33,308 nucleotides of DNA from Bacteroidota bacterium (GTDB taxonomy: Bacteria; Bacteroidota; Bacteroidia; Bacteroidales; VadinHA17). The notes beneath the pieces were generated by a model, which worked only from the letters and a program-made list of their open reading frames with translations, was not told the DNA's origin and did not search any database. The translations under genes were made by a program, and so were the position numbers. This document shows, piece by piece, positions 17,565 to 22,866 of this stretch. Every line of letters begins with the position of its first letter. Position 1 is the first letter of the stretch. The stretch covers positions 1-33,308 of the forward strand of contig JAKQPD010000139.1 of the NCBI GenBank assembly GCA_029564935.1, read 5' to 3'.

Positions 17565-17639
17565 ATGAAGACTCCCGGTTATAAACGGTGCAATATTATA
17601 CCGGGATCCATAAGCAGAAAATAAAATATATCCGCGGGA

Positions 17640-17659
17640 TTATAAAGATTTTATAAAGA
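17640..17659 (-). promoter_or_regulatory. Candidate KdpE box upstream of trkH
   Basis: The plus strand reads TTATAAAGATTTTATAAAGA. On the minus strand this is two TTTATA half-sites separated by 5 bp (11 bp period), the layout I recall for the E. coli kdp operator (TTTATA-N5-TTTACA). The same 20 bp occur upstream of kdpD. A near-consensus -7 element (TATATTTT) lies just downstream toward trkH. Confidence 0.6.
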
Positions 17660-17809
17660 AAAAGTCTTTTATCCTGTTCGCTGATTCTATAATAACTTAT
17701 TTCCGGGTAATAACAGCCTTTCTGGCTTAGCCGTCAGTCAAGAAGTTTTGAGGATCAAAGTTACTTCCGTCTCAGGCCATAGCTGTCAATCTGGGGCGGT
17801 TGGGGTCTA

Positions 17810-18099
17810 AAGTTTCCCCTCCTTTTTTCAAGGAGGGGTGGCCGGGATTGCTGATTTTGAAATGTTTACAATTATGCTTTCCCGGTCGGGGTGGTTAAAA
17901 ACGGATTCAGCTGAAATAGAGTTATTTCTCAGATATGTTCTTAATGTTAAAGCTTTTCCGGTTGAAAAGGTTTCTGTTCCCTAAGGATAAAAATAATAAG
18001 GAAAAATTGAATCAACCACCCCGGCCAGACAAATTAAATTTCTGCAAGTCAGATGATTTTGTTGTCTGGCCACCCCGCCTTTAAAAGGCGGGGAAACTT
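17810..18099. repeat. Symmetric composite inverted repeat (REPIN/MITE-like)
   Basis: Outer arms: 17810-17843 contains the hairpin CCCCTCCTT-ttttc-AAGGAGGGG then TGGCC; 18068-18099 is its inverted counterpart, with the near-perfect palindrome CCCCGCCTTT-a-AAAGGCGGGG (18073-18093). Both ends read AAGTTTCCCC when viewed inward. Inner arms: GGTCGGGGTGGTT (17884-17896) and AACCACCCCGGCC (18014-18026), 12 of 13 complementary. Arm spacing is 40 bp on the left and 41 bp on the right. A further inverted pair, GGCCAGACAA (18023-18032) and TTGTCTGGCC (18062-18071), joins B' to A'. There is no ORF inside. Confidence 0.75.
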
Positions 18100-18179
18100 A
18101 TTTGCGTATAATCCAGTTAATTACAATAGTTTTCGTTGTTAAAATATTTCTTAGTTTGGCGGCTATAGCCCGTCCGGAT

Positions 18180-18863
18180 TCAGTTTCCGAACCTGTAGCC
18201 GATTCCGGATTCAGTGATCAGAAGAGTGGGATTTGAGGGATTGTCTTCGATCTTTTTTCTTAGCTGGGCAATGAAAACACGCAGATACTGCGTTTGTTCA
18301 AGATATCCATAGCCCCATATTTCCCTGAGAATATGCTGATGGGTAAGTACACAGCCCTGGTTTTTTGCCAGGAGGGTTAACAGAGTAAATTCAGTAGAGG
18401 TAAGCTTTAATATTTCACCGTTTTTCCGAACAACATGATTGATCATATCAATATTCAATGAACCAGATTCGATCACAGGTTTGTCACCTGATTCCCTGCT
18501 CAGTCTTATCGCAGCACGTATTCTTGCTATAAGTTCACCGCTCCTGAATGGTTTGGTAAGATAATCGTTTGCTCCGTTGTCCAGAGCTTTAATTATTTCT
18601 TCCTCAGAATTACGCACTGATAAGACAATTACCGGTTTGGTAAACCATTCCCTCAGCTTGAGCAGTAATTCCTGACCGTCAATATCAGGGAGACCCAGGT
18701 CAAGAATAATAAGTGAAGGATTATGTGTGGCAGCAGCAATAAGCCCTTGTTTCCCGTCGGCAGCAAAATATGTGTTGAAATCGTTCGATGAAAGAGTGAT
18801 TTCAAGCAAACGACGGATCTGAACCTCATCATCAATTATCAAAACAGAATCAGATATATTCAT
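18180..18863 (-). CDS. kdpE: KdpE-like OmpR-family response regulator
   Basis: A 227-residue two-component regulator, the expected partner of the adjacent KdpD-like kinase. The receiver domain (about 5-118) has the acidic pair Asp11-Asp12, phospho-acceptor Asp55 (ILDLGLPD) and the conserved Lys in YLTKPF. The C-terminal winged helix (about 130-227) has the KdpE-type signatures LTSTEFTLLTLLAKNQG, HILREIWGYGY and the closing ESGIGYRF. It starts 12 bp after kdpD, so the two form an operon. Its likely targets are the two identical boxes at 17640 and 20643. Confidence 0.9.
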   Translation of the reverse strand: MNISDSVLIIDDEVQIRRLLEITLSSNDFNTYFAADGKQGLIAAATHNPSLIILDLGLPDIDGQELLLKLREWFTKPVIVLSVRNSEEEIIKALDNGANDYLTKPFRSGELIARIRAAIRLSRESGDKPVIESGSLNIDMINHVVRKNGEILKLTSTEFTLLTLLAKNQGCVLTHQHILREIWGYGYLEQTQYLRVFIAQLRKKIEDNPSNPTLLITESGIGYRFGN

Positions 18864-18875
18864 CCTTATCTCATT

Positions 18876-20549
18876 TTATTGATTAATATCATCTCTGAAT
18901 ATTTCGGACGGTATCCTGATCGTGAACTTCGATCCCCCGTTTTTCCTGTTTTCGACGCTTATTGTACCTTTATGAGCTTCAACAAATCCTTTGGTTATTG
19001 ATAATCCAAGGCCGGTGCCACCAGGTTTTGAACCTTCAACCCTGAAGAATTTATTAAAAACATAAGGCAGGTCAGTCTTCGGAAATCCGGGACCTCTGTC
19101 CATCACTTCCATATTTAACATACCGTTGTCATAAAAGGCTTTAATTCTTATACTTGTCGAGGGTGGTGCGTATTGTGTGGCATTATGAACAAGATTGTAC
19201 AATACTTCTTCCATTAAACCGAAGTCCATTCTTACAAGCGGCATATCATCCGGAATTACTATGTCAGTTGTAAAATCTCTGAGCTCTTCGCGAAGGTCTT
19301 CACGGGCTTTGTTGATAAGGTCATGAATATCATGCCAGTCAAATCGCGGAGTTATTCGTCCGCTTTCCAGCCTCGACATATTAAGAAGATTTTCGATGAG
19401 GCGGTTAAGTCTCTTTGATGCCTGGAAAATTTCAGATGAGAGTTCATTCCGTATTTCCTTTGAATGTTCAGATGAAAGCAGGGAATCGGAAGCGCCCATT
19501 ATTGTTGCAACAGGAATCCTTAATTCATGAGATATAGAGTTGAACAGGGTTTTATAAAGCTTATCTGATTCATCCAGAAAGCGGGCTTTTCTGGCAAGAT
19601 CGTCAAGGAATTTCCGTTCAATGCTGTTGGAGATCTGTGTCAGAAATATATCCCAGAACTGCTCCTTATCCGCACCCACAGGAGCATCAAGCTTCAGAGC
19701 AATTACACCGGGTTTAATGCTGCTCCCGGTGAGAGGGAAAAATGTAAGCCTGCCTGAAGGCAGGGTATCAGTATATTTCCCTGCTTTGCGTGAATGACGG
19801 AATACCCATTCAGCCACACTCATTTCCGTTTCTGATAATAATTTCGATGATATGCCCATACAATACTCGGATAAATGATTCATCCCATCCTGAAGGATAA
19901 AGATACTATCAGTATTAAAGTGCTTTTTTATGTTTTTCGCGGCAGATTCAATAAGCTCAGTGATACCCGCAGCGGCTGACAGCTCTCTTGTAAGCTGGTA
20001 GAGGGCACTTGCACGTTCTTCCCGGTCACGTGTAAGTTTCTCCTGACGTCTTACACGCGATGTGAGGATACCATTTACAAGGGCAATTATAAAGAACATA
20101 AAGAACATCAGGATATCTTCTGTCTTATCGATATGAATTGTAAATCTGGGTGGAATAAAAAAGAAATTCCAGATAAATGCACCCAGAGAAGAAGCCAGCA
20201 GGATAGGACCTATACCCATAAATGTCGCAAGGATTGATACAACGAACAACAGGATAAAGGAAATTGACTGGTATCCCAGATATTCCGTGAAGCCAAAGCA
20301 CCCAGCGGAAGTTATTATTACAGCCGCTGCTGCTAAAATGTACTGAAGTATACCTGATTTTCCTGGAACGTGAATGTTTTCTTTCAATCTTTCAGACAAT
20401 GCGAAATGAATCATATAATATGTTTTCCCAACTCCTCCATAAATACCTGACAAGATCTTAAGTCTGTCCCTCTTTACATGTCCTTCGTCGTGTTTGATAG
20501 AAGCGGGTTTTATATCCGGATCAGGCCGGTTCTCAAGCGAATTGTTCAT
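18876..20549 (-). CDS. kdpD: KdpD-like sensor kinase lacking most of the cytoplasmic input region
   Basis: A 557-residue histidine kinase; full-length KdpD is about 890. The N-terminus (about 26-55) keeps the start of the KdpD domain with its P-loop, GIYGGVGKTYYM. It then jumps to four membrane segments of the DUF4118 region (about 66-165, with FIWNFFFIPPRFTIHI). The rest of the KdpD domain and the USP domain, roughly 330 residues, are missing. A GAF-like domain (about 185-310) leads to HisKA with His341 (SISHELRIPVATIMGASDS) and a complete HATPase (NLVHNATQYA, DRGPGF, GTGLGL). It is probably active, but input from the cytoplasmic domain must differ. Confidence 0.9.
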   Translation of the reverse strand: MNNSLENRPDPDIKPASIKHDEGHVKRDRLKILSGIYGGVGKTYYMIHFALSERLKENIHVPGKSGILQYILAAAAVIITSAGCFGFTEYLGYQSISFILLFVVSILATFMGIGPILLASSLGAFIWNFFFIPPRFTIHIDKTEDILMFFMFFIIALVNGILTSRVRRQEKLTRDREERASALYQLTRELSAAAGITELIESAAKNIKKHFNTDSIFILQDGMNHLSEYCMGISSKLLSETEMSVAEWVFRHSRKAGKYTDTLPSGRLTFFPLTGSSIKPGVIALKLDAPVGADKEQFWDIFLTQISNSIERKFLDDLARKARFLDESDKLYKTLFNSISHELRIPVATIMGASDSLLSSEHSKEIRNELSSEIFQASKRLNRLIENLLNMSRLESGRITPRFDWHDIHDLINKAREDLREELRDFTTDIVIPDDMPLVRMDFGLMEEVLYNLVHNATQYAPPSTSIRIKAFYDNGMLNMEVMDRGPGFPKTDLPYVFNKFFRVEGSKPGGTGLGLSITKGFVEAHKGTISVENRKNGGSKFTIRIPSEIFRDDINQ

Positions 20550-20642
20550 TTTATACTATCGGGACATAAATTTAAGAGAAAAACATTAATCCGTTTATCT
20601 ACTGAAAAACGGAACTGGGGTTCCCTTTTAATATTTTCCTGC

Positions 20643-20662
20643 TTATAAAGATTTTATAAAGA
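20643..20662 (-). promoter_or_regulatory. Candidate KdpE box upstream of kdpD
   Basis: The 20 bp TTATAAAGATTTTATAAAGA are identical to the box upstream of trkH and in the same orientation relative to the gene. They lie 93 bp upstream of the kdpD ATG, in the 131-bp gap after the BASS transporter gene. This would let KdpE control its own operon. Confidence 0.58.
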
Positions 20663-21735: not shown

Positions 21736-22866
21736 TTACAGAAGGAATCCGGCAGCCGTAGTTATCATTTTGTTGAAACCATTGTCGACATATCGGCTTA
21801 CCGGGGTAAGGTAAACCGGGAAGGGGTTTTCATGAGAATAGGGATATTCAAAATCCCATATCTCAACATTGTTTGTTTTTACGTTTGATGAAAATCCCAG
21901 GGTCTTCATTATACCATTGGCAGGTATTACTTTATCATGAACCAGACTAACTGACAGGATACGGTCACCAAGAACTGTAAGTGATTTTTCCCTGAATTTT
22001 CTGAATCGTGAAAAATCGATCATTGAACGAAAAGCCAGGCCAACCCGTGATGAAAGAATAGTTTTCATGAATCTCTTCCCTGTTTTTATTTCCGTTTCAA
22101 AATCCTGCATATAATACCTGTAAACTCTGTTATATGCTTCAGAGTCCATTATCAGGCGTGAGGCCCCGTTCATGTTGCTGAATACTGATCCTCCGCAGAA
22201 CATGAATAATTTTGAATTGCTGAAAAGATCCTGCGGATCGGCCATCATTATGATTTCTGCAAGAAAAGCGCCTATGGAATATGCAAAGATGTTGACCTTA
22301 CTGCCTCCCGGAACAACGGGGTGCTTCCCGTCCCTGATCGAGATCATGAGATCTTCAAGATCACGGACTGTCTGATATCCTGAATTCATGAATCGCCGCG
22401 GATCATCCGTCAGCCTTTCGCTGATCGCAATGTTGGCAAAGGTTCTTAACCGGTCATCACCTCTGTTCCTGTTCCTCTCCTTTATTAAACCTGTCATTGC
22501 CCTCGGATCTTTCCATGATTCCGGCGAACGGTTTATGTGGAAAGAGATCGGGAACATGACCACATAACTTCCGGTTAAAAGGGAAAGCGAATATGCCCAG
22601 GCCAGATATTTGGTCCAGCTCCTTTCATTTAGTCCGTGAAGAAGAAGTATCACTTTCCCGTTATCAGAGGGAGGAATAAATACAGGATAGGAGAAGCTCA
22701 GGTTCTCAATTATAGCTGAATCACCTGCATTCAGGAATTCTTCTGATGAGTAATCCGAGGAGAACCCGGTATTCATTATTCTTATTCCCGAATCAGGGAT
22801 CCGGATCTCTTCTGTCACCGGATTATAAACAGTACGTAGCTCTTCAGCCAGATTTGTATACCCCAT
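21736..22866 (-). CDS. DUF6051-like alpha/beta hydrolase
   Basis: A 376-residue protein without a signal peptide. An alpha/beta-hydrolase core is visible: oxyanion region VILLLHGLNERSW (about 72-84), a nucleophile elbow with Ser197 in AYSIGA (the first Gly of GxSxG is Ala) and a late HDK...YSHENPFP that may supply the acid and His. It fits the DUF6051 family of Bacteroidota as far as I can judge; its activity is unknown. It is divergent from the LytTR gene across 219 bp. Confidence 0.7.
   Translation of the reverse strand: MGYTNLAEELRTVYNPVTEEIRIPDSGIRIMNTGFSSDYSSEEFLNAGDSAIIENLSFSYPVFIPPSDNGKVILLLHGLNERSWTKYLAWAYSLSLLTGSYVVMFPISFHINRSPESWKDPRAMTGLIKERNRNRGDDRLRTFANIAISERLTDDPRRFMNSGYQTVRDLEDLMISIRDGKHPVVPGGSKVNIFAYSIGAFLAEIIMMADPQDLFSNSKLFMFCGGSVFSNMNGASRLIMDSEAYNRVYRYYMQDFETEIKTGKRFMKTILSSRVGLAFRSMIDFSRFRKFREKSLTVLGDRILSVSLVHDKVIPANGIMKTLGFSSNVKTNNVEIWDFEYPYSHENPFPVYLTPVSRYVDNGFNKMITTAAGFLL

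Follow-up and report, generated by a model that had tools for sequence, protein, structure and literature searches.

An identical 20-bp box is located upstream of two minus-strand genes, trkH and a short kdpD, in a contig of a VadinHA17 Bacteroidota bacterium (assembly GCA_029564935.1, contig JAKQPD010000139.1, positions 1 to 33,308; this whole stretch is hereafter called the window). Using comparisons with related genomes we interpret the box as the operator of the adjoining response regulator KdpE, acting on the potassium importer gene trkH, and assign this explanation as a whole a probability of about 0.87; autoregulation through the kdpD copy is its weaker part because the promoter parts of that copy are out of the usual register. 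Control of trkH by KdpE, which had been proposed from the letters of the window without database searches (the sequence-only reading), is strongly supported by sequence comparison, namely by the operator layout known from Escherichia coli, the DNA-contact residues, the boxes ahead of importer genes in relatives, the linkage to kdpDE and a promoter element in register with the box. Control by KdpE of its own operon, proposed in the same reading, is plausible rather than proven: the box is present, and further short kdpD genes carry one with a -7 element in register, but the window copy has neither such an element nor a second box.

The box at the window locus

On the minus strand the genes follow one another toward lower coordinates in the order short kdpD, kdpE, a repeat and trkH (Table 1). 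The 20-mer TTATAAAGATTTTATAAAGA (forward strand) was found at both positions given by the sequence-only reading, and toward the genes both copies read TC-TTTATA-AAATC-TTTATA-A, a direct repeat of the form TTTATA-N5-TTTATA with an 11-bp period, again as claimed. The box is separated by 75 bp from the minus-strand start of trkH and by 93 bp from that of kdpD, within one base of the 76-93 bp noted before. The identity between the two copies stops at exactly 20 bp; as the flanking sequences differ, duplication of a longer segment was rejected.

No third copy was found in the window with up to three mismatches allowed, and shuffled controls gave a mean of 0.02 matches and two matches in 0/100 shuffles. 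In the source genome (4,175,997 bases in 441 contigs, 95% complete) only these two copies were found at up to two mismatches, and a backwards-read control pattern had 0 matches. The earlier judgement that chance identity is very unlikely is borne out by these counts. A looser pattern gave no additional site at 0 or 1 mismatch in the same genome; its remaining matches have two or three mismatches only, and the total at up to three mismatches (73, versus 100 for the reversed control) is not enriched, therefore no wider regulon is visible in this genome.

The gene calls of the sequence-only reading hold, trkH by PF02386 and the two others by their top NCBIfam models with scores below the curated cut-offs: PRK10529 (KdpE) for the regulator (227.7 bits, cut-off 325) and PRK10490 (KdpD) for the kinase (284.4 bits, cut-off 1123). 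The regulator consists of a PF00072 receiver and a PF00486 winged helix. According to the available text of the structural study of E. coli KdpE (PMC3264566), its DNA-binding domain binds the T-rich direct repeats TTTATA and TTTACA, 5 bp apart, at kdpFABC, which agrees with the operator TTTATA-N5-TTTACA given in the sequence-only reading. Two T-rich 6-bp direct repeats with a 5-bp spacer (TTTATA-AAATC-TTTATA) are likewise present at both window sites. The window differs from E. coli in having TTTATA at both half-sites, a longer conserved site (TCTTTATAAAATCTTTATAA) and trkH as the gene downstream, in a genome in which no kdpA could be found. The same text names R193, R200 and T215 of E. coli KdpE as important for DNA binding (PMC3264566), and their counterparts in the window KdpE are identical (YLR, LRKK and ITES, by eye in the alignment with 4kny).

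Table 1. Coordinates, strand and supporting details of features at the kdpDE-trkH locus of the window.
Feature	Position	Strand	Details
KdpE-type operator (predicted)	17640..17659	-	TCTTTATAAAATCTTTATAA toward trkH; same-type box in 5/5 kdpE-linked window-type trkH promoters of the genus, 0-1 mismatch
Second identical operator (predicted), upstream of short kdpD	20643..20662	-	without in-register -7 element or second box
Degenerate second operator copy at trkH, 32 bp downstream of the first	17609..17627	-	8/19 mismatches
Promoter -7-like element TAATATTG at trkH, ends +50 after the 19-mer	17591..17598	-	5/6 fixed positions of TAnnTTTG
trkH, potassium uptake protein, 481 aa	16119..17564	-	PF02386 E 6e-54; TIGR00933 273.8 bits, below cut-off 331
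kdpE, OmpR-family response regulator, 227 aa	18180..18863	-	best PDB match E. coli KdpE 4kny, E 2.6e-57
Short kdpD, sensor histidine kinase, 557 aa	18876..20549	-	DUF4118 + HisKA + HATPase; without KdpD (PF02702) and Usp domains
Relic Walker-A motif GIYGGVGKT (G-X5-GKT) in the ~47-residue N-terminal stump of KdpD	20421..20447	-	alignment with G045; motif as described in the available text of PMC11018627
MITE-like repeat between kdpE and trkH	17809..18101, ends approximate	.	103 matches in own genome

Distribution of the box in the genus and the order

The pattern TCTTTATAAARTCTTTATR (a 19-mer) was searched in 62 genomes of the genus with the reversed pattern as control (G, C and L numbers are our handles for genomes, contigs and loci). 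Exact matches were found at 18 places in 15/62 genomes, and at up to one mismatch 38 places were found versus 15 for the reversed pattern. The gene following the exact boxes is kimA (5), trkH (4), kdpA (3), kup (2) or kdpD (1), and three further exact boxes are located in kdp loci that begin with a small or unclear gene (G049, G022:C80:18364, G012:C135:31723). KimA of the relatives was recognised by its match to a solved KimA (E 8e-64) and Kup by PF02705. A KimA-type importer gene stands behind a box at L061, L066, L136, L138, L140 and L137; at the first four of these loci kdpA lies downstream of it in the same orientation, and at L137 the match to kimA falls into two pieces. A KdpF-like 51-aa open reading frame (ORF), identified by eye at L068 2453-2608 in G022, follows an exact box at a place separate from the main kdp operon.

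The exact box occurs in 15/35 genus genomes with a KdpD-type kinase versus 0/27 without one (Fisher 4e-5, an indicative value that overstates independence because the genomes are kin, which weakens the case accordingly). At up to one mismatch the counts are 22/35 and 2/27, and for the reversed control pattern 6/35 and 6/27. Genomes with a kinase match of E below 1e-90, plus G042, were counted as positive.

Across 295 genomes of the order the exact box was found at 28 places in 23 genomes versus 2 places for the control pattern. Outside the genus count there are 24 places, of which 20 are ahead of kdpA (7, among others in G196, G323, G309, G132 and G313), trkH (4), short kdpD (4), kimA (2), kup (2) or trkA (1), three are ahead of ORFs of 169-170 aa and one is at a contig edge. 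The scan of the genome and its relatives suggested by the sequence-only reading hence returned exact boxes mostly ahead of K+ importer genes; the exact box is not widespread outside such genes, while some one-mismatch boxes are located away from them.

Promoters of TrkH genes were examined singly for 30 places with loci and 18 fetched sequences, and the others by the genus-wide scan and in a few cases singly. Where trkH of the type present in the window is next to kdpDE in the genus (the window, G032, G055, G004 and G050), its promoter carries the box with 0-1 mismatch in 5/5 cases, 73-77 bp upstream of the gene. Among unlinked genes of this type in the genus 0/44 promoters are boxed, the best having five mismatches (one artefact row, the second L170 row with its start outside the locus, is excluded from this number). 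Absence from orthologous promoters is thus true only for trkH not next to kdpDE. Comparison of the linked trkH promoters, leaving out the near-duplicate pair G032/G055, gave 17-19/19 identical positions in the box, and 15-26/60 and 23-36/60 in the upstream and downstream flanks. Next to kdpDE, the second trkH type has a box with one mismatch in Paludibacter, and outside the genus one of the two linked window-type trkH genes (n = 2) has a box with two mismatches (G101). The kimA promoters carry a box with 0-1 mismatch in 9/10 cases.

Several observations weigh against a box shared by K+ importers under KdpE. The exact box is missing from 20/35 KdpD-carrying genomes of the genus, and 6/20 one-mismatch places there are not near K+ genes (G005:C17, G031:C60, G001, G022:C61, G022:C84, G036); these six may be chance matches. 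The second trkH type next to kdpDE has weaker boxes in the genus (one mismatch in G022, two in G037, three in G059), and the other linked window-type trkH outside the genus, which adjoins kdpDE in G073, has nothing better than five mismatches. Only 4/8 kup promoters have the box and the other 4/8 have none. Within 600 bp, kdpA promoters (n = 24) have boxes with 0-1 mismatch (8), two (6), three (3), or four or more mismatches (7), so that 7/24 are without a good box close by, although three of these seven (G049, G042, G044) have a box with 0-2 mismatches further upstream. Finally, three exact boxes of the order precede sigma-factor-like ORFs of 169-170 aa (L233, L234, L235), the two that were scanned, those of L233 and L234, having sigma factor regions 2 and 4 (PF04542, PF08281). 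All three boxes have a perfect in-register -7 element, and kdpE is beside the ORF in L234 and L235; a KdpE-controlled sigma factor is possible at these loci.

The box being A+T-rich and standing beside a -7-like element, and the looser pattern not exceeding its control at up to three mismatches, it could be a general promoter element of this composition or a chance repeat. We consider this very improbable and rejected it on the shuffles, the rarity of the box in 4.18 Mb at up to two mismatches, and its excess over the reversed pattern in the genus and the order; in addition, all 44 unlinked trkH promoters are boxless. A direct repeat of 11-bp period is compatible with OmpR-family regulators in general, which are hard to separate by sequence, 97 NCBIfam models matching the window KdpE. 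It is nevertheless improbable that an OmpR-family regulator other than KdpE reads the box, given that its layout matches that of KdpE itself, that it tracks KdpD-type kinases and kdpDE linkage, and that its targets are mostly K+ importers. As shown by comparison among the relatives, the box belongs to a predicted KdpE-type regulon of K+ importers.

Promoter register and the kdpD copy

For the promoter register 55 sites were picked by hand, some of them related or from the same genome; among others G011, G101, G059 and one-mismatch places away from K+ genes were left out. A TTG triplet ends at +50 after the 19-mer in 36/55 sites, at +49 in 6 and at +18 in 10, and an end at +49 to +51 was counted in 42/55 sites versus a mean of 3.2 and a maximum of 11 in 2000 shuffles. 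The element near +50 resembles TAnnTTTG in the listed sites, which we take to be the Bacteroidota -7 element. The positions +18 and +50 are 32 bp apart, which is the spacing of a degenerate second box: at 29 chosen sites the second box has a mean of 5.3 mismatches at +32 versus 9.2-14.9 at the other offsets between 20 and 44. Judged by this comparison, the trkH copy in the window is shown to be part of a putative promoter of the regulon design, with a perfect distal box, a weak second box at +32 and a TAnnTTTG-like element at +50.

The kdpD copy departs from this design, which counts against its part of the interpretation: it has 14/19 mismatches at +32 and 3/6 positions of the -7 element at +50, and its sole 5-of-6 candidate for this element ends at +77. 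In G032, G055 and G004, moreover, trkH is boxed while no good box was found within 600 bp ahead of kdpD. Both observations favor a scheme in which the trkH site alone serves as promoter operator, and the copy at kdpD is a relic or has another role (for instance at a promoter some 27 bp further on, or as a weak repressor site). This is possible if somewhat doubtful, for the 20-bp kdpD copy is perfect, which a relic would presumably not retain for long, and elsewhere the box of short kdpD genes is accompanied by a -7 element in register (in G080, G196 and G186, and at a more distant upstream position in G085).

The window gap between kdpE and trkH is 615 bp, compared with about 115-180 bp in G032, G055, G004 and G050 (from gene coordinates), and contains a MITE-like repeat with inverted ends, whose matches in the genome include itself and are mostly partial. 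Given this widened gap with its inserted repeat, trkH in the window probably depends on its own boxed promoter. A DUF6051 gene is located near the kdpDE-trkH cluster (window 21736-22866), likewise in G032 and G055.

The short KdpD, the missing pump and the choice of importer

The window KdpD is 70-71% identical to the 891-aa KdpD of the relative G045 over their common part; in the alignment the first ~47 residues are kept, followed by a jump straight to the membrane domain. The N-terminal KdpD domain (PF02702) was not found in the window kinase nor anywhere in the assembly, and KdpA (PF03814) had 0 matches in it, KdpB and KdpC not having been searched for; both absences rest on an assembly that is 95% complete, which tempers the argument drawn from them. 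The same PF03814 search was positive in 5/14 control genomes. Because neither KdpA nor the KdpD N-terminal domain was found, we read the locus as probably a KdpDE system without its pump, driving trkH. The truncation of KdpD went unmentioned in the sequence-only reading, which had no means of knowing that the genome search for KdpA comes up empty. Even shorter KdpD proteins (frame of about 381-384 aa) are encoded at L038 7750-8889 and L039 2309-3415, adjoining kdpE and a boxed trkH; in these proteins the membrane domain is joined to the kinase core without the linker of the window protein (its residues 195-318). Many full kdp operons of the genus have, between kdpC and kdpD, a gene for a protein of ~297 aa whose HAMP match is weak and does not reach the Pfam cut-off (L037 9721-10614 and homologues).

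As to other importers, the own genome contains one Kup and two more TrkH matches, of which one is partial, lying at a contig edge; TrkA domains adjoin the second TrkH. True KimA was not found in it (best match 26% identical, E 7e-8). The fetched stretch upstream of its kup has no box better than six mismatches, and L227, taken as the region upstream of the second trkH, is mostly inside trkA and says little about the promoter of that operon. A scan of genome contigs gave four loci, two of them distant kinases, and added little.

In E. coli KdpD, a tandem serine and histidine kinase, the available text describes membrane, HisKA and HATPase parts, which the window protein shares together with a recognisable Walker-A stump; unlike E. 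coli KdpD it has neither Walker B nor the remainder of the KdpD domain nor Usp, and it is accompanied by no KdpA that we could find (PMC11018627). The same text presents the KdpD domain as a serine kinase acting through KdpB Ser162 to inhibit the pump, and, in species selected for having the pump, reports KdpD chains with the histidine kinase only that are paired with a separate KdpD/Usp chain (PMC11018627). Loss of the KdpD domain would fit its pump-inhibiting role, since no pump would be left to inhibit: once the pump was gone, the serine-kinase regulator would have become dispensable and been deleted, leaving a sensor with the histidine kinase only. At low K+ the short KdpD would phosphorylate KdpE, and phosphorylated KdpE would bind the two half-sites 11 bp apart and recruit RNA polymerase to the trkH promoter; the kdpD copy may, less certainly, provide autoregulation.

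A phylogenetic tree of KdpE and the kinase core (36 rows) groups the window (G000) with the short KdpDs of G032/G055 (support 96/93). Long-branch warnings concern G070, G085 and G073, and the G080 row joins KdpE and KdpD from two neighbouring operons. The window group belongs to a ten-row clade (93/92) of nine short KdpDs and one full-length form; the genes neighbouring the members of this clade are trkH, the second trkH type or kup. A recent truncation of a full-length KdpD of the G045 type is less likely given this placement in a mostly short clade. Because the importer neighbours vary in this clade, and because the tree requires at least four switches between full-length and short KdpD, it seems that KdpDE modules exchanged importer partners while the operator stayed.

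The operator and both proteins are of known kinds, and what differs is the target gene, the missing pump and the missing sensor half. The available text on Sinorhizobium fredii reports that KdpE binds the kdpFABC promoter and not the trkA or kup promoters (PMC9239096). A KdpE-type box ahead of kdpFABC in the relatives of the window parallels this, while in difference from S. fredii their trkH, kup, kimA and trkA promoters also have predicted KdpE-type boxes. For Mycobacterium tuberculosis dysregulation of Trk and Kdp genes without KdpDE is reported; in the text available this link is genetic evidence, with no shared operator shown (PMC13163235). Trk and Kup are described as constitutive in the source text available. 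Searches of the open-licence PMC literature listed no paper on a KdpE operator upstream of trk, kup or kimA genes in Bacteroidota, which is not proof of absence.

It appears likely from these comparisons that KdpE regulates K+ import generally in Bacteroidales-like bacteria and would activate kdpFABC, kimA, kup, trkH and trkA by way of a single promoter design (two operators in tandem at a 32-bp spacing and a -7 element at +50); modules would swap importers and keep the operator, and the window lineage would have lost the pump together with the serine-kinase/Usp half, its histidine-kinase-only sensor being wired to Trk. We do not put this more firmly because of the kdpA and kup promoters without a good box close by. 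The operator appears to be common to several K+ importer families in one bacterial group and to be retained with TrkH where no Kdp pump was found. The arrangement of the boxes provides a precise and testable promoter grammar, and the locus may serve as a natural rewiring experiment on which parts of KdpD serve transcription control and which only the inhibition of the pump.

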